From Virgibacillus natechei (lineage in GTDB: Bacteria > Bacillota > Bacilli > Bacillales > Amphibacillaceae): a stretch of DNA of 64,000 nucleotides. The stretch covers positions 2,604,001 to 2,668,000 of the forward strand of contig NZ_CP110224.1 in NCBI RefSeq assembly GCF_026013645.1, written 5' to 3'. The position numbers were made by a program, and so were the translations under genes. Positions within the stretch are counted from its first letter, which is position 1. Each line of letters begins with the position of its first letter. Shown here piece after piece: positions 275 to 11,952 of this stretch. The notes under the pieces were generated by a model, which was not told where the DNA came from, made no database searches, and saw only the letters and a program-made list of their open reading frames with translations.

Positions 275-1486
275 TTAATCCAACACAAACTTATTGCGAC
301 CAGCACCCATGCCAAAAATCACAACCATTATAGCGATACCGATCAATGTGATTAATGGTACTGTCCAAACCTGCGTGATATCATATAAATAGCCAATAAG
401 CATCGGACCAATTGCGGCCAAGACGTATCCGAGCGATTGTGCCATTCCCGATAACTCGCCGGCCTGTTTTGCATTTCGCGCACGCAAGCCCAAAAATGTT
501 AAGCCTAGGGCAAAACTTCCACTCATCGCACTCCCAATTAAGATTGTGCTTATCACCATAATGGCATAGGAACTCCCCAAAAGAAGTCCACTAAATCCAG
601 TTACCGAACATATTCCCAATGCAATTACGATCGGACGTTGTGATTCCACCCTACCGGCGATCATAGGTACAAGAAAGCTAGCAGGAAGTCCGATAAATTG
701 TGAAAATGACAACATCCATCCTGCTGTTGCCATCGTCACACCATAATCATGCAGGATTTCTGGTAGCCAGGAAATCGTCACATAAAATAAAAATGATTGA
801 AAGCCCATATAGCCAGCTACTTGCCAAGCAAGCGGTGATTTATACATTCGGTTCTCTGCAACACGCACATACGTAACCTCAGCATTATCATCATCTTTTG
901 GTGTTTTTCTAGCAAGATAGACCCAGATAATAGCCGCAAGTATTGCAGGGATCGCCCATACAAGTAAAGCCAACTGCCACCCTAAATCCATACCTGTTGC
1001 CAATGGAATACTTAAGCCGGATGCTGTTGCAGCAAATATCCCCATTGCAGTTGAATAGACGGCTGTCATGAGCGCAACTTTTGCTGGATATTTTTCCTTA
1101 AGAACACCTGGTAATAATACATTACAAATGGCAATTCCCATTCCGACAAACAACGTGCCAATCAAAAGAAAGACTAGTAAAGAAATGGATCGCATACCGA
1201 TTCCGAATACGAGTAAAATTAATCCTAAAAGCATTGTTCTTTCATATGTAAATCGTTGACCAAGTTTAGGTGCAATTGGAGATATGACGGCAAATGCGAC
1301 GAGTGGCAAACTCGTTAAGACTCCTACACTCCAATTGGACAGACCAATATCATCACGAATAATTCCCATCAGTGGTCCGACTGAAGTAATAGAAGGTCTT
1401 AAATTAAATGCTACAAAAATGATACCAGCAAGTAGCAAATAACGATACACGCTTGGTTCATTTTCTTTTGTATTATATCCTTCCAC
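275..1486 (-). CDS. CynX/NimT-family MFS transporter
   Basis: A 403-residue integral membrane protein with about 12 hydrophobic segments. The N-terminal FNLRPSITSVGPLMGIIRDD followed by LPLVAFAVISPIAPKLGQRF is typical of the CynX/NimT (cyanate, 2-nitroimidazole) branch of the major facilitator superfamily, which probably exports small compounds across the cytoplasmic membrane using ion gradients. The start is a GTG with a strong ribosome binding site (AGGGAGGTG) at the right distance. Length is normal for the family and nothing looks broken. The substrate is unknown. Confidence 0.85.
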   Translation of the reverse strand: MEGYNTKENEPSVYRYLLLAGIIFVAFNLRPSITSVGPLMGIIRDDIGLSNWSVGVLTSLPLVAFAVISPIAPKLGQRFTYERTMLLGLILLVFGIGMRSISLLVFLLIGTLFVGMGIAICNVLLPGVLKEKYPAKVALMTAVYSTAMGIFAATASGLSIPLATGMDLGWQLALLVWAIPAILAAIIWVYLARKTPKDDDNAEVTYVRVAENRMYKSPLAWQVAGYMGFQSFLFYVTISWLPEILHDYGVTMATAGWMLSFSQFIGLPASFLVPMIAGRVESQRPIVIALGICSVTGFSGLLLGSSYAIMVISTILIGSAMSGSFALGLTFLGLRARNAKQAGELSGMAQSLGYVLAAIGPMLIGYLYDITQVWTVPLITLIGIAIMVVIFGMGAGRNKFVLD

Positions 1487-2158: not shown

Positions 2159-4129
2159 TTAGCCTTCTGTCGATAATGATTGATCTGTACCCATTTCCCC
2201 AGAGTCATCCTTACGTTGCTTTTGAATAAACCATACGATAACAATTAAGATAATTCCAGCAATACTGCTAGCTAACGCAGGCGTAATTAGCATTAGGCCA
2301 GATCCAAATAATATAACTCTTTCCCAATTTGTTGAATTGCGTATAAAGAATCCGATCATAGAGCTACTAATAGCAATCATCCCTAAAAGTGCAGTGAGTA
2401 CGGAAATTATTAGATTTACTGGTGTGACATCTACTAACACTAAAATTGGATTATAGATAAATATATACGGGATAATAAATGCTGCAATTGCAAGTTTCAC
2501 CGCGTTCACACCCGTTTTAAACGGATTCGCCCTAGCTATTCCAGCTCCAGCATACGCGGCCAAGCAAACAGGCGGTGTAATATCAGCAACAATTCCAAAG
2601 TAAAATACAAACATATGCGCAGCGATCGGAGTAATACCAAACTCATTAATTAACGCCGGTGCTGCAACAGTTGCTGTTACTACGTAATTTGCAGTTGTCG
2701 GTAATCCCATACCAAGAATAATACAAGCAATCATCGTGAAAAATAATGCTAAGAAGAGATGTCCACTTGATAATGCAATAATACCTGAGGCAAATTTTGA
2801 GCCAAGACCTGTTATACTCACTACCCCAGCAATTATTCCAGCGGTTGCCACAGCGGCAATTACCGGTAGCGCAACTCGAGCCCCCTGTTCTAAAACGTGA
2901 ATAATTTGTTTGAAATTCATACGTGTTTCTTTTCTAATCAAACTAACAAGGAATGCTGCTAAAATTCCCATTAAAGCAGCTCTCTGTGGGGTAAAACCTA
3001 CTATAATCGTTCCTACAATTACAACTAACGGGAGAAGCATATAACCATAATGAAGCATTAATTTTCGAAATACCGGAAGCTCTGACTTTGGTAATCCGAA
3101 TATACCTAATTTCTTAGCTTCAAAATGCGTTCCAATAAAAATTCCACTAAAGTATAAAACAGCCGGAATGACCGCAGCTAACATTATAGTAACATAAGAC
3201 ACACTTAAATATTCCATCATTATAAAAGCTGCTGCACCCATCAGTGGTGGCATGATCTGTCCACCTGTTGAGGCAGAGGCCTCCGTCGCCGCAGAAAATT
3301 CTGGCTTAAATCCTGCTTTTTTCATCATTGGGATCGTAAAGGATCCAGATGCAACCGTATTGCCTACCGAGCTTCCTGATACCATGCCTTGTAAGGCACT
3401 CGCAGAGACCGCAGCCTTCGCCGTACCTCCCGTGTACCTGCCAGTTAATGCAAATGCTAAATCGTTGAAGAATCTACCTATCTTCGTATGTACAAGAATA
3501 ACCCCAAAGAAGAGAAATAGAAAAATGAATGTCGAGGAAATTTGAATCGGTGTTCCAAACACACCACTCTCCCTATACCATAAATTCGTCGCCAACCGAT
3601 CGACTGAAAAACCTGGATGCGAAAGTATTTGTGTTGGAATAAAGTTTCCAAAAATCGCGTATAAAATGGTAATAAATGCAACGATAACAATTGGTAATCC
3701 AACCGTTCGACGTGTGGCTTCAAGTAGCAACAACACTCCTATAACAGATATGATAATATCTACCACGCCGTATCCTGAAATCCTGCTTTGTAGAATAGGT
3801 GCGTAAAAGAAAACTTTATGATAAGACACATACATCGCGCTAAATGCGAATATAACATCATACCATGGAATGGTTTTCTGTTTTTTTTGCAGCCCTATTT
3901 TTGCAGGGAAAAGTAAAAAAATAATGCCAAGCCCTGTCCCCAAATGAATAGCACCTTGCTGTTGAGATGGCAATGTCCCAAAGTATCCTGTATATAAATG
4001 GAAAAATGTTAATGTCACACCGAGAAACGTAACAATCCAAGCCCATTTTCCAATATTGATCCGGTAGTTACTTTCTTTATCATATTTTTCTAGAATATCT
4101 TTTGCATTTGTTTCCTGATTGCTTTGCAT
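2159..4129 (-). CDS. TRAP transporter permease, fused small and large subunits (TAXI type)
   Basis: A 656-residue membrane protein with many hydrophobic segments. The N-terminal quarter corresponds to the small (DctQ-like) subunit and the rest to the large (DctM-like) subunit, as in the fused 4TM/12TM permeases that pair with TAXI binding proteins. The stretch LQGMVSGSSVGNTVASGSFT, the PPLMGAAAFIMMEY motif and GMGLPTTANYVVTATVAAPAL are characteristic of the large subunit. It imports an organic solute, often a carboxylate or amino acid, driven by a sodium or proton gradient. It lies 105 bases downstream of the binding-protein gene, separated by a hairpin. Substrate unknown. Confidence 0.92.
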   Translation of the reverse strand: MQSNQETNAKDILEKYDKESNYRINIGKWAWIVTFLGVTLTFFHLYTGYFGTLPSQQQGAIHLGTGLGIIFLLFPAKIGLQKKQKTIPWYDVIFAFSAMYVSYHKVFFYAPILQSRISGYGVVDIIISVIGVLLLLEATRRTVGLPIVIVAFITILYAIFGNFIPTQILSHPGFSVDRLATNLWYRESGVFGTPIQISSTFIFLFLFFGVILVHTKIGRFFNDLAFALTGRYTGGTAKAAVSASALQGMVSGSSVGNTVASGSFTIPMMKKAGFKPEFSAATEASASTGGQIMPPLMGAAAFIMMEYLSVSYVTIMLAAVIPAVLYFSGIFIGTHFEAKKLGIFGLPKSELPVFRKLMLHYGYMLLPLVVIVGTIIVGFTPQRAALMGILAAFLVSLIRKETRMNFKQIIHVLEQGARVALPVIAAVATAGIIAGVVSITGLGSKFASGIIALSSGHLFLALFFTMIACIILGMGLPTTANYVVTATVAAPALINEFGITPIAAHMFVFYFGIVADITPPVCLAAYAGAGIARANPFKTGVNAVKLAIAAFIIPYIFIYNPILVLVDVTPVNLIISVLTALLGMIAISSSMIGFFIRNSTNWERVILFGSGLMLITPALASSIAGIILIVIVWFIQKQRKDDSGEMGTDQSLSTEG

Positions 4130-4156: not shown

Positions 4157-4190
4157 GAAGAAAAGGGATCTGCTTTAAACAAGATCCCCT
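4157..4190 (-). terminator. Intercistronic hairpin, possible partial terminator
   Basis: GGGATCT at 4165-4171 pairs with AGATCCC at 4182-4188. In the direction of transcription the stem is followed by TTTTCTTC. It sits between binding protein and permease, where partial termination would give more binding protein than permease. Confidence 0.5.
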
Positions 4191-4234
4191 CTCTAGATTT
4201 TCTTCTATTATCGGGTTTTGTTTCCCACCAAAAC

Positions 4235-5230
4235 TTAGTTCATATCATCTAAGCTTTCAATATCAGCATTTTCACGCGTGACTATTTGAACAACCTCTGG
4301 ATAAATGTGTCCGATGAAAGCAGCATTCGTTACTTCATTACCTTCAAAGTCCCCCTCACCATTCAATGCGTCTAGCGCCGGCACATGAACAGTCATACCA
4401 AGATCCATATCTCCATCACGAATACTAGCCAGGTTTTCGATTGAGGCCCCTGTTTCTGTATTCGTCACATTTATCCCATCGATGTTGTTGTTCCATATAT
4501 TCGCCATCTCGCCACCAAGTGGATAATACGTACCACCCTGACTACCGGTTCCTAAAATAAATTCATCTTTACTATCCGTTGCGCTTAGCTCTGCTTCAGG
4601 ATTATCAACCGTTAACCCTTGTTCTTCATAATAGCGTTTTGCACCAGGGTGAATCTCTAATCCATCAGATCCTTGCAGCGCGTTTTCCAATGTCATTTGC
4701 TCTGACTGGGCATGCGTATTTTCGTCTGCATTTTCCACCATCGACTTAGCCAGTTCATAACCCAACTCTTCATCAATGGCATCCGTATTACCCACCAAAA
4801 CCGCATACGCTGTAACTGTCTCTACATCAGCGTCAAGAAAATCATAAGTATCTTGTGGAATCGTATAGCGCTGATATCCGCTATTCTCCTCCATATGATC
4901 AATTGCATCATCAGATAGATCTAGCATCTTCACATCACCGGCTGACGCTTGCAAACTTTCAATACTGCCTGCAGGCAATCCCAATATTCCAATCGAAATA
5001 TCAATATTTCCATCCTGTACACCATCAGCCGCATCTCCAAATCCCTCTTGGTATGCACTATAGTCATCTTCACCCAACCCATACGCTTCCAAAATTAAGC
5101 TAGACACCGTATTTGTTTCACTCGCTGGCGGACCAATCGCAATATTCTTCCCTCCGCCTCCACATGCTGCAAGAACTAAGACCATGGTTAACATTAGTAT
5201 AAATAATCCAACTAATTTCTTTCTTCTCAT
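4235..5230 (-). CDS. TRAP-TAXI substrate-binding lipoprotein, circularly permuted
   Basis: A 331-residue lipoprotein: signal peptide, lipobox LAAC (Cys23), then mature domain. All parts of a TAXI binding protein are present but in swapped order. Residues 28-210 start with KNIAIGPPASETNTVSSLIL and run through LEIHPGAKRYYEEQGLTVDN, which in ordinary TAXI proteins is the second two-thirds ending at the C-terminus. After a linker (PEAELSATDSKDE), residues 224-331 start with FILGTGSQGGTYYPLGGEMA and end with IESLDDMN, which normally forms the N-terminal third. In normal relatives LDDMN-GKNIAIGPP is continuous. The protein captures substrate outside the membrane for the permease gene downstream. 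Length is normal for the family. Confidence 0.9.
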   Translation of the reverse strand: MRRKKLVGLFILMLTMVLVLAACGGGGKNIAIGPPASETNTVSSLILEAYGLGEDDYSAYQEGFGDAADGVQDGNIDISIGILGLPAGSIESLQASAGDVKMLDLSDDAIDHMEENSGYQRYTIPQDTYDFLDADVETVTAYAVLVGNTDAIDEELGYELAKSMVENADENTHAQSEQMTLENALQGSDGLEIHPGAKRYYEEQGLTVDNPEAELSATDSKDEFILGTGSQGGTYYPLGGEMANIWNNNIDGINVTNTETGASIENLASIRDGDMDLGMTVHVPALDALNGEGDFEGNEVTNAAFIGHIYPEVVQIVTRENADIESLDDMN

Positions 5231-5697
5231 GTTTTAACCCCTTTTTCTTTTATTTTTAGCTTCCAACTATGGGCGTTTTTTAGAAAGAGGGAAATCTCAT
5301 GGATGTGCAGAATTAAATGGGAAGCTCGTTTTAAATATATTTATTCTTATTTTTTAATTTTATGATATGTTCTCTGATTATTTATTCCTAGATGGCATAC
5401 TTTCAACGATGCTAATCCTTCGCAGCAATTCGGGTGACTTTATATACTTTGGGGGTGGTGATGATTTATATCATTAAGGCGATGTTTACGTAGATTTGGG
5501 TGATGTTCTGGTTAAAAATTCATGTTTTTATAATATTTTAATGTTCTTCTGATCTAAGCTAAGCTTCATAGCCATAAAGATGATTCTCTGATAAATTTAT
5601 AAAGTTGATTGACATGATAAAAATCTAAATCCTTTTTAAGCACACCTTTTTCTATCTTTTGCGATCCCCCCCCCTCTACAAATCTATAATTAGAATT
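5231..5697. other. Intergenic region with no recognised gene
   Basis: About 470 bases, AT-rich, between the TRAP binding protein and the chemoreceptor terminator. It holds a run of nine C (about 5666-5675), but I see no open frame with a ribosome binding site. It should contain the promoter of the TRAP operon on the minus strand, which I could not place with confidence. Confidence 0.5.
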
Positions 5698-5736: not shown

Positions 5737-7425
5737 TTACAACTTAAATTGACGTACTAAACTATTTAGTTCTTCAGCTAACTTGGAAAGTTGGTCAGAA
5801 CTTGCTGCCACCTCTTCCATCGAGCTACTCGTTTGTTCGGAGGAAGCGGACGTCTCTTCCACTCCTGCAGCTGCTTCCTCAGAAGCTGATGCAATCTCCT
5901 CAATCGAGCCATTCATTTCCTGACTATTAGCCACTATTTCTGAAAGGTTCTCCGATACAGAATGAATATTCGTTACCATTTCATTTACAGATGTACTTAT
6001 ATCGCTAAAGGTTTCACCAGTGGTCTTAATTTGGCTTGTACCCTTTTCAACTTCTGTATAGCCTTCTTTTAATGATTCTGCTACCGTACTGGATTCATTC
6101 TGGATCGCACTTACAAATCCAGTGATATCCGTTACAGAAACAGATACTTGTTCCGCTAACTTTCTTACTTCATCAGCCACAACCGCAAAGCCTTTGCCAT
6201 GTTCACCAGCTCTTGCAGCTTCAATCGCAGCATTTAAGGCTAATAGATTTGTTTGATCTGCAATGCCTTGAATAACAGTTACTAACTTTGATATCTCCTG
6301 TGATTGCTTATCTAAACTTTGCATCTTTTGCACGGATTCCCGAACAATTTGATCAATATTTGCCATTTGCTTCGTTGATTCGTCCATATATTGACTGCCT
6401 ACTGTAGTCATTTCCAAAACTTCAGTTGAGGACTGCTGAATATTCTCCCCTTTTTCATTTGCTTCTTGAACTTTTGTAGTGAATGTATTCATAATGGATG
6501 CTAGATCACTTGCACTATTCGCTTGCGTCTCGGATCCAGCTGCTAATTCTTGCATCGTACTTGCCACTTGTTCAGATCCTGACTTCACTTCATTTGCAGA
6601 TTGCGTCAATTCTTCACTATGACTTGATACCGTATGTGATACGTCATTAATCTTATGTATGACTTCTTGCATACTCGTATTCATTTCGTTCGTCGCCGTA
6701 ACAAGTTGCCCTATTTCATCTCGTGACTTTGTCTGGATTGGCTCACTGCTGAGGTCACCGTTCGCAATTAATTTCATGCGTTCCATAACTGCGATAATCG
6801 GTTTCGTAATACTCCTAGAAGTAACGAGGGCAACTACTACACCTAAAATCATGACAAGAATGGTTATACTAGCGCCTATATAAAAAGTAAGTTCCCCGTT
6901 TGCGATGATTTCGTCGCCTATTTCATGAATTTGTGTTTCTCTGCTGGTGGCCATATCCTGGAAACCGTCAATTAATTCATTCGCAATCGGCTGGACCTCG
7001 TCCGCCATAATATCCATTGCTCGTTCTTCGTTACCACCATCATAGTGTGCAAACACTTCATCTGTTAAGTGTCCCCACTCAATTTTCCTATCAATAAGTT
7101 CTTGCGCTTGTTCGGAGCTGCTGTTTTCAAGTACAAAGTTTTCCAGTTCTATACTTTCTTCTAACGTGCCTTCAAATTCATCTTTGTAATGCTGATCTCC
7201 ATATAATAAATACCCTCTTAGCAAACTTGTTCTTTCAGCCATATCGACCGCCAACTGTTCATCCGCTATTAGCATCTCAAGCTGGTAATCCAAGATTTCT
7301 TCTATTTCATTATTCGTATGATAAGTAGAATAATTATTAAAAATCCCCAATAAAAACACCAGTAAAATTACGATAGAAAATCCGAAAATTATTTTAGCCT
7401 TAACGCTTTTGAATCCCTTTTTCAA
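5737..7425 (-). CDS. Methyl-accepting chemotaxis protein
   Basis: About 562 residues. A first membrane helix near residues 10-35, an extracellular helical sensor domain (to about 185, 4HB/CHASE3-like by its spacing and charged heptads), a second membrane helix, a HAMP segment ([20 protein letters not shown]) and a long cytoplasmic signalling coil containing the invariant hairpin tip [20 protein letters not shown]. It binds CheA/CheW at this tip. I chose the TTG at 7425 because GAGGTG lies six bases upstream; a GTG at 7434 is also open but lacks room for a binding site. Last gene of the motA-motB-cheA-cheW-cheY-mcp operon. Ligand unknown. Confidence 0.9.
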
Positions 7426-7460
7426 TTCGTGCACCTCATTATTATTTTACTAAAATTATC

Positions 7461-7817
7461 TTATAGAGCTTTCTTCATTGCTTCTTCAATTCGTTCCGCA
7501 GTAAAAGGTTTTACAATAAAATCTTTTGCTCCAGCTTGTATAGCTTCTAAAACCATCGTTTGCTGCCCCATTGCCGAACACATAATAATCTTGACGTCAT
7601 CGTTTAGCTGTTTTATTTCTTTCACTGCTTCAACACCATTCATTTCAGGCATCGTAATGTCCATCGTTATAATATCAGGCTCGAGTTCCTGATATTTTTC
7701 AATAGCCTCCTGACCATTTCCGGCTTCACCTACTACTTCATGTCCTAATTTTGTTAATATATCTTTAAGTTGCATCCTCATGAATGCCGCATCATCTGTT
7801 ATTAATACTTTTGCCAT
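7461..7817 (-). CDS. cheY: Chemotaxis response regulator CheY
   Basis: A 118-residue single receiver domain. The acidic pair D8-D9, phospho-acceptor D53 (TMDITMPEMNG), S81 and K103 (IVKPF) are all present, so it should be phosphorylated by CheA and act on the flagellar switch. The ribosome binding site AGGAGGGG precedes the ATG. It lies 19 bases after cheW, in the same operon. No output domain is attached. Confidence 0.95.
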   Translation of the reverse strand: MAKVLITDDAAFMRMQLKDILTKLGHEVVGEAGNGQEAIEKYQELEPDIITMDITMPEMNGVEAVKEIKQLNDDVKIIMCSAMGQQTMVLEAIQAGAKDFIVKPFTAERIEEAMKKAL

Positions 7818-7836
7818 TTTAGCCCCTCCTGTTTTC

Positions 7837-8298
7837 CTATTCTTCTATTATTTCTCTCACTTCATTGGTTTCATTGAAATCTAATATTTTCTCTAAATCT
7901 AGTAAAATTAACAGTCTTTCTTCTAATTTCGCTACGCCTTTAAGAAAGGTTTCCTGTATTTCACCAATAATCTTAGGTGCTGGTTCTATCACAGCTGGAT
8001 CAATATCGATTACCTCTGATGCTGAATCGACGATTAACCCCACTTGTATATCATCCAATTGAACAACTAATATACGATTAGCATCCGTTTTTTCCGTTTC
8101 ACCAAGCTGTAAACGTTCCTTAAGATCAATGATAGGTGTCATTTCCCCACGAAGTTGAATCACCCCTTTGATAAACGCTGATGTTCGGGGAACCGCTGTA
8201 ATTTCCTGTGTTCGTTCAATCGATAGAACTTGTTGCACATCAACACCGTATGATTGATTTTTTAACTTAAATACGATAAATTTTATCATTTCCTCCAT
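7837..8298 (-). CDS. cheW: Chemotaxis coupling protein CheW
   Basis: About 153 residues forming a single CheW-like domain (IKFIVFKLKNQSYGVDVQQV, then GVIQLRGEMTPIIDLKERL), which links chemoreceptors to CheA. The ATG at 8298 fits the upstream GGGGG best; a TTG two codons earlier is also open. It starts 18 bases after the cheA stop, consistent with one transcript. Slightly acidic C-terminus, nothing missing. Confidence 0.93.
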   Translation of the reverse strand: MEEMIKFIVFKLKNQSYGVDVQQVLSIERTQEITAVPRTSAFIKGVIQLRGEMTPIIDLKERLQLGETEKTDANRILVVQLDDIQVGLIVDSASEVIDIDPAVIEPAPKIIGEIQETFLKGVAKLEERLLILLDLEKILDFNETNEVREIIEE

Positions 8299-8316
8299 AA
8301 TCAAGACCCCCTATTC

Positions 8317-10296
8317 CTATTTAATCAATGCATTCGGATCTATAATCAAAGCGACTTGACCATCTCCTAAAATTGTTGCACCTGAAATAGCATAAACATC
8401 CTGCATATAGTTTCCTAATGACTTTAAAACCACTTCCTTTTGGCCAATAAAAGAATCCACGATTATCCCTGTTACTTTTTCACCTTTTTTAATAACCACA
8501 ATGGCATGGTGCTTTTCTGTGGTATCTTCAGCTTTTGGGACGTTAAATACTTCGGCTAACGATACGAGTGGAATCACTTTACCTCGGAAGTCCATCACCT
8601 TTTGACCATGGGCATACATCATCTGTTCCTCTTCAAGCAGTACCGTCTCAATAATGGACGAAAGTGGAACAGCATAGGTTTCGTGTTGAACCTTAACCAA
8701 TAATGTTGATAGAATAGAAAGTGTCAAGGGCAATTGAATCGAGAATTTACTACCCATACCATGTTTCGATTCAATATCAATTTGCCCACCCAAGGATTCT
8801 ATTTTATTTTTTACAACATCCAATCCAACCCCGCGCCCAGATATATCAGAGACTTCATCCGCTGTGCTGAATCCAGATGCTAATAGGAGTTGGAATATGT
8901 CGTTATCGGTTTTCTCTTTACTTTTTTCAATTGTAAGTAATCCTTGTTCAATTGCTTTTGCCTCCACTTTTTTGCGGTTAATCCCTGCTCCATCATCTTC
9001 TATTTCAATAAACACATGATTCCCGCTATGAAAAGCTCTTAATGTTAACTCACCGGATTCAGATTTGCCTGCTTGGATACGTTCTGAAGTTGACTCAATT
9101 CCGTGATCAATAGAATTGCGGATCAAATGCACCAATGGATCCCCTATTTCGTCAATAACCGTTCGATCCAGCTCCGTTTCAGCTCCGATAATTTCTAAAT
9201 TTATCTTTTTATCCAAATCCTTAGCCAACCCTCGTACCATACGTGGAAATCGATTAAATACCTGGTCAACAGGCACCATCCGCATGCCTAATATCAAACC
9301 CTGCATGTCTTCTGAAACACGTGTAACATGCTCAACCGTCTCTGTTAATTCCGGATTCTCTATATGCTCAGCAAGATCTTCCAGGCGACTTCGATCAATA
9401 ACAATCTCTTCAAATAAGTTCATCAACTCATCAATCCGATCCAAATTCACACGAATCGTTTTGGAAGACGTGTTTTTACCTTGCGCTGGCTTCTCCTCTG
9501 TGGAAGTGGCTGAGGTTTCTTCTGTAGCTTGTTCCACCATCTTGGATTCTTTTATAGGCGAAACTGTTGAAACTTGAACATCTTTTACTTCAGACACATT
9601 ATAAATTAATTCCTTCATTTCTTCTGAAGAGGTCTTGGACAAAAAGAACAAAGAAAAATCTTGTTCAAACTCTCCTTCTTCTAGCACTTCCATTTCAGGT
9701 ATGGTCTTTATTAGTTCTCCATGGCTATCAATTGCTTCAAAAACCATATAAGCACGAACGGATTTCAGCATACAATCTTCAGCAAGTGTGACTGTAATTT
9801 GGTATGTATGAAATCCCTGCTCTTCTGCCTGGGCAACTACAGTAGCTTGGAATTCATCTAATTCAACTTCTTTTTTCTCTTCTCCTTTTTCATCTTCTGG
9901 CTGGTTCTCTTTAGATGTTCCTGTTTCCAACTGCTCCAATCGACTAACTAGCCCTGAAACATCCTTTTTGCCATCGCTTCCTTCACTGATTGCGTTAACC
10001 ATTTCTTCCAGCGAATCTAGTGCTAAAAAAATAATATCAATAAGTTCTGTAGAAACTGCTAATTGACTGTTTCTAATTTTATCCAGAACGTTTTCCATAT
10101 GATGTGTCAGGGAAGCAATATCCTCAAATTCCATGGTCGCAGCCATCCCTTTTAGTGTATGGGCTGAACGGAATATTTCATCGACAAGCGTAAGGTCACC
10201 TGGTTGTTTTTCCAATTGGAGAATATGATCGTTAACTGCTTGTAAATGCTCACGGCTTTCATCTAGAAACATATCAATGTATTGAGTCGTCTCCAT
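8317..10296 (-). CDS. cheA: Chemotaxis histidine kinase CheA
   Basis: About 659 residues with the full domain order: P1 Hpt domain with phospho-acceptor His46 (IFRSAHTLKGMAA), a linker, a P2 CheY-binding domain (about 145-250), P3 dimerisation helices starting at SSKTIRVNLDRIDELMNLFE, a P4 ATPase with N box HLIRNSIDHGIE and glycine boxes DDGAGI and GRGVGLDVV, and a C-terminal P5 CheW-like domain. It phosphorylates CheY in response to chemoreceptors. The ATG at 10296 (METTQYIDMF) has AAAGGAAGTG upstream; the longer open frame to 10338 is not needed. Confidence 0.95.
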   Translation of the reverse strand: METTQYIDMFLDESREHLQAVNDHILQLEKQPGDLTLVDEIFRSAHTLKGMAATMEFEDIASLTHHMENVLDKIRNSQLAVSTELIDIIFLALDSLEEMVNAISEGSDGKKDVSGLVSRLEQLETGTSKENQPEDEKGEEKKEVELDEFQATVVAQAEEQGFHTYQITVTLAEDCMLKSVRAYMVFEAIDSHGELIKTIPEMEVLEEGEFEQDFSLFFLSKTSSEEMKELIYNVSEVKDVQVSTVSPIKESKMVEQATEETSATSTEEKPAQGKNTSSKTIRVNLDRIDELMNLFEEIVIDRSRLEDLAEHIENPELTETVEHVTRVSEDMQGLILGMRMVPVDQVFNRFPRMVRGLAKDLDKKINLEIIGAETELDRTVIDEIGDPLVHLIRNSIDHGIESTSERIQAGKSESGELTLRAFHSGNHVFIEIEDDGAGINRKKVEAKAIEQGLLTIEKSKEKTDNDIFQLLLASGFSTADEVSDISGRGVGLDVVKNKIESLGGQIDIESKHGMGSKFSIQLPLTLSILSTLLVKVQHETYAVPLSSIIETVLLEEEQMMYAHGQKVMDFRGKVIPLVSLAEVFNVPKAEDTTEKHHAIVVIKKGEKVTGIIVDSFIGQKEVVLKSLGNYMQDVYAISGATILGDGQVALIIDPNALIK

Positions 10297-10352
10297 TCCA
10301 CACTTCCTTTCTTTGAGTCTATTAGAAATTCTAGCCAAGCACGCTACTATAT

Positions 10353-11171
10353 TTATTGATCTTCTAAATCATCTAATTCCGTTTGTATTTCAAAATTAGG
10401 TAATACGAGTACTTCCACCCGTCTATTTAACGCTCGATTTTCTTCACTTGTATTTGGTAAAATTGGTTGATGTTCCCCGTATCCTTTCGCACTATATCGT
10501 GCTGGATCAAGTTCGTCATTTTCCAAAATGATGCCCATAAAATTAACAGCCCGCTGCACACTTAATTCCCAGTTGGATTCGAATTCTTCATTATTCATTG
10601 GTCGATCATCAGCATGTCCGCTAATCACAATTTGACGTGGAGGATCTGTATGTAGAAGGTCAGCTATCTCATGAGCAATTTCTTCGCCTTCTCTATTTAC
10701 AACAGCACTTGCTGATTCAAAGGTTATTTCATTCTCAATAGAAATTAATAATCCTTCATCCGTTAACGCCGTCCCTAACTCCTCTGCTAAATTATTTTCT
10801 TCAATATAATGGTCGATCTCTTCTTGGAGGTCCTGTAATTGAAGCAATTCTAAAGCAGTATCACGTTGATCCTCTATCTCTTCTTCCTCTTCGGATTCGT
10901 CTTCCTCTACTTCATCTTCTTCATTGGATTCTACCGGTATTTCCACTGGAACCTGATCATATTCCACAATTCCAGTCCCAGCAGAAGAGAATTCACTTTG
11001 AAAAACTTCTGCTAATTCTTGGTATCGTTGAGCATCAACATCACTCATTGCAAATAAAACGATAAACAGCGCCACTAATAGGGTCAGGAGATCTGAATAC
11101 GGAAGTAACCAGGATTCGTCGATATGTCTATCCTTTCGCCGCCTATTTCTACGCATTGGCCTTCTACTCAT
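10353..11171 (-). CDS. motB: Flagellar motor stator protein MotB
   Basis: About 272 residues: basic N-terminus, one transmembrane helix with the ion-carrying aspartate at residue 27 (LLPYSDLLTLLVALFIVLF), an unusually acidic Glu-rich linker (about residues 85-105), then an OmpA/MotB peptidoglycan-binding domain (ISGHADDRPMNNEEFESNWE, LNRRVEVLVLP). It anchors the stator to the wall. I chose the ATG at 11171 because AGGAG lies seven bases upstream inside the end of motA, which it overlaps by a few bases. The sequence resembles B. subtilis MotB more than MotS; whether protons or sodium drive it cannot be read here. Confidence 0.93.
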   Translation of the reverse strand: MSRRPMRRNRRRKDRHIDESWLLPYSDLLTLLVALFIVLFAMSDVDAQRYQELAEVFQSEFSSAGTGIVEYDQVPVEIPVESNEEDEVEEDESEEEEEIEDQRDTALELLQLQDLQEEIDHYIEENNLAEELGTALTDEGLLISIENEITFESASAVVNREGEEIAHEIADLLHTDPPRQIVISGHADDRPMNNEEFESNWELSVQRAVNFMGIILENDELDPARYSAKGYGEHQPILPNTSEENRALNRRVEVLVLPNFEIQTELDDLEDQ

Positions 11172-11952
11172 TTTCATTCTCCTGCTTCGGTGCGTTTAAC
11201 TCCTTAGCTGACAAATAAGAAGCTAACTTATCCCGTACAACCATTGCAGAGTCACCATTCGTTATCGATACGATACCCTCAATCATGATCTCCTTTTGTT
11301 GCACTTCTTTTTTCGACTTTTCACGTAGCTTATTTGCAAACGGGTGCCACAGCATATACCCCGTAAAAATACCAAGCAATGTTGCAATAAATGCAGCAGA
11401 AATCGCCGAGCCTAATACATCCATATCCTGCATATCACCAAGTGCAGCAATCAAACCAATTACCGCACCAAGCACGCCTAACGTCGGAGCATAGGTACCG
11501 GCTTGTGAGAATACAGCCGCCCCTTCTTCATGTCTTCTTTCCATGGCATCAACTTTCTCCAACATAACGTCCCGAATAAACTCAGGTGTTTGTCCATCTA
11601 TAGCCAGTTGCAAGCCAGAAGATAAAAATGGTTCATTGTCAACTCTATCTATCTGATTCTCTAAAGATAGCATGCCTTCTCTACGCGTCTGTTCCGCCCA
11701 TTCCGTAAATGTCGTAATGAGCTCTTTTGTATCGATTTGTTTTTCCTCTACAAATAATTTCTTGAATAGAGATGGAACTTTCTTAATCGTACTCATAGGA
11801 AATGCAATGACTACCGATGCAGCCGTACCTACAACAATAATAATAAAAGCACCTGGATTAATTAAAGCCTCCAATTCAACGCCCTTCAGTATTATACCAA
11901 CACCGATGGCAATAAAACCTAAGAAAATACCTATTACGGTTGTCTTATCCAT
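11164..11952 (-). CDS. motA: Flagellar motor stator protein MotA
   Basis: A 262-residue protein with four membrane helices, two near the N-terminus and two around residues 145-200 (TYAPTLGVLGAVIGLIAALG, FIATLLGIFTGYMLWHPFAN), and a large cytoplasmic loop that contacts the rotor. Length is as in B. subtilis MotA. First gene of the operon, behind a sigma-D-like promoter at 12006-12032, and it overlaps motB, as usual for a stoichiometric pair. Confidence 0.95.
   Translation of the reverse strand: MDKTTVIGIFLGFIAIGVGIILKGVELEALINPGAFIIIVVGTAASVVIAFPMSTIKKVPSLFKKLFVEEKQIDTKELITTFTEWAEQTRREGMLSLENQIDRVDNEPFLSSGLQLAIDGQTPEFIRDVMLEKVDAMERRHEEGAAVFSQAGTYAPTLGVLGAVIGLIAALGDMQDMDVLGSAISAAFIATLLGIFTGYMLWHPFANKLREKSKKEVQQKEIMIEGIVSITNGDSAMVVRDKLASYLSAKELNAPKQENENE

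Follow-up and report, generated by a model that had tools for sequence, protein, structure and literature searches.

Permuted binding proteins are already known for ATP-binding cassette (ABC) transporters. In the available parts of the papers that we cite by PMC number, TpMglB-2 (Tp0684) is described as a circularly permuted glucose-binding lipoprotein, for which a 'Cluster Bc' was proposed (PMC4990184), and a permutation is reported among the glycine-betaine binding proteins, including OpuAC (2b4l) and ProX (1r9l, 1sw1), with pairwise identities below 24% (PMC2395249). Among TAXI proteins, the TRAP-associated extracytoplasmic immunogenic binding proteins of tripartite ATP-independent periplasmic (TRAP) transporters, the TAXI-GltS protein BP0403 carries additional domains ahead of its TAXI domain, which can be superimposed on VcGluP, and is paired with a different permease (PMC12344293). 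As the earlier note on this DNA had supposed, the papers listed by searches of the open-licence literature included none on a permuted TAXI or TRAP binding protein, and a term search of the available part of PMC12667903 had no match. Here we describe such a protein, encoded in a 64,000-nucleotide stretch of the Virgibacillus natechei genome (NZ_CP110224.1, positions 2,604,001 to 2,668,000; hereafter the window). It is very probably a true circular permutant among the TAXI solute-binding lipoproteins and part of a two-gene TRAP system; it would have been re-ordered once in Bacilli, kept its fold and pocket, moved its lipid anchor and passed its solute to a fused permease. The gene and its parts are as follows.

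4235-5230, minus strand: gene for the circularly permuted TAXI-type TRAP solute-binding lipoprotein, 331 amino acids (open reading frame, Pfam, NCBIfam, PDB alignments and model)
5238-5243, minus strand: probable ribosome-binding site AAGGGG upstream of the ATG (read from the sequence)
5162-5230, minus strand: predicted lipoprotein signal peptide with lipidated Cys23 in LAAC (motif search)
4610-5152, minus strand: residues 27-207, the C-terminal part of ordinary TAXIs, comprising lobe 2, hinge strand 2 and the end of lobe 1 (domain matches, PDB alignments and model)
4565-4609, minus strand: residues 208-222, the new linker from the old C-terminus to the old N-terminus (domain-match borders, motif borders and model)
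4238-4564, minus strand: residues 223-331, the N-terminal part of ordinary TAXIs, comprising the lobe 1 core and hinge strand 1 and ending in SLDDMN (domain matches, PDB alignments and model)

In the Pfam scan of the 331-residue protein, the family NMT1_3 (PF16868) covered it in two stretches (217 bits, cut-off 27), the best of which aligns residues 27-205 to profile positions 111-289. A six-frame search at this place returned profile positions 111-289 and 1-118 as two matches, the latter from the C-terminal third. NCBIfam TRAP_TAXI (TIGR02122) also matched (224 bits, cut-off 84). The alignments to three solved TAXIs (9ibo, 8s4j and 1us4) are likewise crossed: the N-terminal part of the query corresponds to chain residues ~115-312, and its C-terminal part to chain residues from ~2-18 to 114-129. 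All seven PDB sequences matched at an E value of 0.01 are TAXIs or entries named TAXI-like, and NMT1_3 was the sole Pfam family matched up to an E value of 1. Instead of the colinear N-to-C order of the TIGR02122/PF16868 model, the second part comes first and the first part last, and on these alignments the protein is classed as a permuted TAXI variant, not as an ordinary member. It was fair of the earlier note to call the swap exact, as the permuted chains listed stop 0-3 residues past the matched part that is normally continuous with the other half. The new linker it had reported is 15 residues long by domain-match borders and 16-19 by motif borders, and the lipobox is indeed kept, as LAAC here and as a lipobox-like motif with its cysteine in 58 of 58 permuted proteins (motif search).

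An assembly or annotation artefact in this one genome has practically no probability as the source of this order. Nothing was found in its favour; the genome is a single 3.87 Mb contig that, as an internal control, also carries two ordinary-order TAXIs; and the search for homologues of the same order, which the earlier note had suggested, returned 57 other distinct permuted proteins from other assemblies. Assembly error and chance match were ruled out by these 57 proteins together with the single-contig genome.

After removal of duplicates the permuted set comprised 52 and finally 58 proteins, the window protein included, spanning five family-level groups of the class Bacilli (family codes f1, f2, f49, f175 and f205 for the unnamed rows); two of the 57 others (L041 and L051) share one assembly. 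A scan of one genome per species gave 38 loci (23 permuted, 13 ordinary and two fragments), with the permuted ones in Oceanobacillus, Virgibacillus, Sporosarcina, Filibacter, Psychrobacillus, Lentibacillus, Cerasibacillus, Ornithinibacillus and Aquibacillus, and the closest permuted relatives of the window protein are Oceanobacillus- and Virgibacillus-like. In whole-genome searches, 6 of 61 relatives and 30 of the 159 genomes of the same family (13 of 46 genera) had a full-length match. Such matches were also present in 12 of 100 relatives of the genome G394, in at least 14 of 397 genomes of the order sample and in at least one of 299 genomes of the phylum sample, namely the V. natechei genome itself. 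A profile search found them in at least 8 of the 398 genomes of the class sample, in which another 10 genomes had a match to just one half and thus the ordinary order. These samples overlap, and the order, phylum and class counts are lower bounds from at most 5-7 candidates scored per genome. In the family-wide search, the permuted form was absent from both other genomes of the genus. By its recurrence in these sequences, the permuted order is a conserved lineage and not a peculiarity of the V. natechei genome.

The two fragments were left out of the counts. L071, from a Pseudogracilibacillus metagenome-assembled genome and cut by a contig end, starts like a permuted protein. L072:4942-5145, on a draft contig of Marinobacter sp. 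ELB17, is a 68-residue frame with 66% identity to part of the protein and may be a fragment, a contaminant or a pseudogene. In a PF16868 search of 199 Bacillota genomes, the matches listed had E values of about 3e-62 or lower and the window's own permuted gene scored 7e-38, so other permutations are possible there. Beyond Bacillota, coverage came from the one-per-species scan and from a tblastn search of plasmids, which returned 334 records, all below 60% identity among the best 15 of the 334. Permuted forms may hide elsewhere, since TAXI models name these proteins without signalling their order; TIGR02122 matched all 52 permuted proteins scanned.

A maximum-likelihood tree was built with the halves re-set to the ordinary order, from 58 permuted proteins and 31 ordinary ones, and was rooted on L021; 16 distant ordinary proteins were excluded. 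The order changed state once in this tree, and the permuted proteins formed one clade nested among ordinary TAXIs, with a support of 100 in the Shimodaira-Hasegawa-like approximate likelihood-ratio test (SH-aLRT). The same single clade was recovered from 52 permuted and 39 ordinary rows (support 99) and from each half alone (SH-aLRT 99 and 99), and no reversal to the ordinary order was seen among the 58. A single origin of the permuted order fits these trees, which come from quick searches with SH-aLRT as the sole measure of support. The copies from Sporosarcina, Psychrobacillus and Filibacter are nested within Oceanobacillus-type permuted proteins, which suggests transfer of the operon.

The trees of the separate halves also bear on whether the gene is a chimera, in which halves from different TAXI paralogues were joined in the wrong order. 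Their closest ordinary rows do differ: the old N-terminal half lies nearest to the L058/L011 group (fork support 0, next 72) and the old C-terminal half to L117 and L118 (fork support 94). However, both trees set the permuted clade inside the same inner ordinary group, and the differing forks rest on 108 columns (old N-terminal half) and 181 columns (old C-terminal half). Because both sets of rows sit in that same group, we read the disagreement as too few columns rather than as a chimera of far paralogues; the latter was thought unlikely on this ground, and a chimera of any paralogues appears very improbable.

Under a single re-ordering, an ordinary TAXI gene would have been rearranged in an ancestor within the class Bacilli, by tandem duplication with trimming or by fission and refusion. 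The chain would have been opened near the start of lobe 2, at the conserved DL(K)|GK step; a linker of ~16-19 residues would have bridged the former termini, and the new N-terminus would have gained a signal peptide and lipobox in front of it. A search for remnants of lost copies in the 300 nucleotides downstream of 52 permuted genes gave nothing better than an E value of 0.2, and none of the classified open frames contained more than two halves; the tandem duplication route is neither shown nor excluded by these sequences. Codon comparisons indicate that the permuted gene is under strong purifying selection. The ratio of nonsynonymous to synonymous substitution rates (dN/dS, method NG86) was 0.012-0.053 in ten permuted pairs, among them window-L035 with a dS close to saturation (2.5), and 0.049 in one ordinary pair; dS was unusable for the window-L006 pair.

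The structure prediction recommended in the earlier note yielded a confident AlphaFold2 model (predicted local distance difference test, pLDDT, 92.2; predicted template modelling score 0.85), in which the blocks flanking the linker have mean pLDDT values of 88-97. Its secondary-structure elements, 13+8, are a rotation of the 8+13 elements of an ordinary relative, and the two-lobed cluster F fold with two hinge strands is predicted. Foldseek gave a partial match of the model to 9ibp; ordinary TAXIs were absent from the 50 structural-match rows, which carries no weight against a relation because the aligner is sequential. In the published structure of VcGluP, the hinge strands span residues 116-131 and 255-267 and domain 2 spans 132-254 (PMC11574862). 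The earlier note had the new termini at a domain crossover, which did not hold: in the alignment (offset hand-set from S40, Y45 and C53) the cut falls at ~VcGluP 143|144, ~12 residues into lobe 2. In the model, each of the two long hinge strands is continuous (mature-chain residues 114-126 and 281-297), so the hinge would keep its two covalent crossovers. What is chiefly to be expected is a switch of the lobe that carries the anchor, not a severed hinge.

With the cut in lobe 2 and the hinge intact, lobe 2 takes over the lipid anchor from lobe 1, a move that is shown at the sequence level and whose geometry we infer. In ordinary relatives the lipid precedes lobe 1 by a tether with a median of 24 residues (2-37, n=47); these lengths are motif-based and a few short values may be false, and domain-match borders gave 8-43. 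In the permuted proteins it precedes lobe 2 by a median of 6 residues (6-19, n=58), with exactly 6 in 37 of the 58 and 14-19 in 6 of the 58; the difference between the two groups is a single evolutionary contrast, so a rank-test P value for it does not count as independent evidence. One permuted subgroup (L008, L089, L095 and L096) has tethers of 14-19 residues and is a natural control for the short-tether idea. The permuted chain would still fold into the two-lobed TAXI flytrap with intact hinge strands, and lobe 2, on its short tether, would now be the lobe kept near the membrane, where ordinary TAXIs have lobe 1 on a longer tether; this would change how the binding protein meets its permease.

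For the pocket, VcGluP residues Y45, S75, Q93, H123, E125, Y200 and G203 correspond to Y235, S263, V281, Y310, E312, G81 and G84 of the window protein. These seven and T234 (VcGluP V44) are invariant in the 52 permuted proteins and 13 ordinary sisters. The equivalent of VcGluP Y46 is Y in 51 of the 52 permuted proteins and F in 11 of the 13 sisters, that of M201 is I, L or V in the permuted proteins and mostly L in the sisters, and that of S40 is S in 51 of the 52. VcGluP suffers most from the loss of Q93 or Y45 (PMC11574862). Because the Q93 position is V here, the ligand is probably not bound as glutamate is in VcGluP, and because V is also found in the sisters and in 6 of 9 proteins of the next group, this shift probably predates the permutation. 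The protein is likely a working TRAP binding protein, whose little-changed pocket would bind a small organic solute and pass it to the fused permease. That permease and the sequence before it lie directly downstream.

2159-4129, minus strand: gene for a fused TRAP permease (TIGR02123), 656 amino acids, the downstream partner (Pfam and NCBIfam scans)
4159-4194, minus strand: predicted hairpin between the binding-protein and permease genes, with its 3' arm running through a T-rich stretch (folding of a 113-nucleotide stretch)

A permease piece of at least 350 residues was present in the stretch examined for 51 of 52 permuted genes; among the 23 named permuted loci the permease is adjacent in 22 and missing in L041. 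The permease tree, drawn with a midpoint root, was built from the permuted-side rows, some of which are duplicates, together with 22 of the 39 ordinary loci (in the remaining 17 the stretch examined had no long permease piece), and its split between permuted and ordinary rows mirrors the binding-protein tree with a support of 100. DUF3394 matched the permease slightly below the cut-off, over positions 2-45 of its 181-position profile, and the permease seems from its sequence to be without the claw domain of VcGluQM; a suggestion in PMC11574862 is that tethered binding proteins may do without it. The 113-nucleotide stretch with the hairpin has a z score of -2.31, with 8 of 200 shuffles folding at least as well; the terminator scan did not pick this hairpin, and the promoter scan gave only chance-level numbers. 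The hairpin could set the ratio of binding protein to permease.

As a tentative idea, to which we give rather less than an even chance, the permutation is a switch of the anchored lobe: lobe 2 would be pinned at the membrane, mostly by about six residues, lobe 1 would be free, and the fixed and moving lobes would swap roles, turning a roaming flytrap into one of fixed orientation at the permease. If true, it would be, to our knowledge, the first natural TRAP binding protein whose topology sets its docking geometry. It is about an even call whether the change is instead one of topology only, with order and fold as described, a neutral permutation, and docking and motion like those of ordinary relatives; this alternative concerns the consequence only, and its probability does not sum with that of the permuted-lipoprotein explanation. 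Most of the mapped pocket residues are common to the sister group, whose mean identity to the permuted proteins is 65% and 56% for the two halves. Only two positions separate the permuted binding proteins from the near ordinary ones as fixed differences, and 12 of 661 separate their permeases (90% and 80% cut-offs in both cases), as neutrality would have it. The tether of exactly six residues in so many permuted proteins and the absence of reversals speak against it, although neither is proof of a functional effect.

Upstream, at 5737-11952 on the minus strand, a methyl-accepting chemotaxis protein gene and, upstream of it, CheY-, CheW-, CheA-, MotB- and MotA-like genes (translations read by eye) run on the same strand into the TAXI operon. 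Their position would suit a repurposed protein that delivers no solute and serves, for example, as a sensor for this receptor, as would the lack of a permease in L041; yet the strong purifying selection, the permease found at nearly all permuted loci and the presence of the receptor cluster in only 5 of 37 loci compared, not always adjacent, leave repurposing a very slim prospect. L041 belongs to Virgibacillus sp. MSJ-26, in which the permuted gene is followed by a 999-codon frame, PAS/GGDEF/EAL-like by eye; the same strain carries a second permuted copy, L051, with a permease. At 275-1486, minus strand, lies a major facilitator superfamily transporter gene, whose cluster also follows the permuted operon on its downstream side in L047, L050 and L057. 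The neighbours otherwise vary by lineage and include an M20 peptidase, class III and class I/II aminotransferases and an RpiR-type regulator, among others; no ligand was inferred from them.

The glycine-betaine binding proteins serve ABC transporters and offer a topological analogy only. OpuAC was absent from the seven PDB matches (E 0.01) and from the Pfam matches (E 1), its structural match being topological, and no remark on permutation was found in the available part of the OpuA paper (PMC2861598). TpMglB-2 is alike in being a lipid-anchored binding protein with a natural circular permutation. It differs in being of the ABC-type class I, with a permutation that adds a fourth hinge crossover (PMC4990184), whereas none is added in our model; its re-ordered part is poorly conserved (PMC4990184), whereas both halves align clearly here. 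No match to an MglB-type class I or cluster B protein was obtained in Pfam (E 1) or the PDB (E 0.01), so that the window protein stands apart from Cluster Bc. BP0403 resembles it as another departure from the usual TAXI architecture. A natural permutation with near unpermuted sisters, a single branch of origin and an intact partner gene makes it possible to test directly how chain order affects folding, hinge motion, anchoring and docking. Compared with the ordinary TAXIs TtGluBP (1us4/8u79), VcGluP (8s4j/9ibo) and VCA0144 (9ibp), the window protein is homologous in both halves and shares the predicted two-lobed fold, the pocket Tyr and Ser and a TRAP permease partner, and it is a lipoprotein like the ordinary relatives in our comparison. 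With V in place of Q93 and G in place of Y200 it has no VcGluP glutamate site, a difference common to its ordinary sisters; what sets it apart from ordinary TAXIs is that its halves are rotated and its anchor is on lobe 2.
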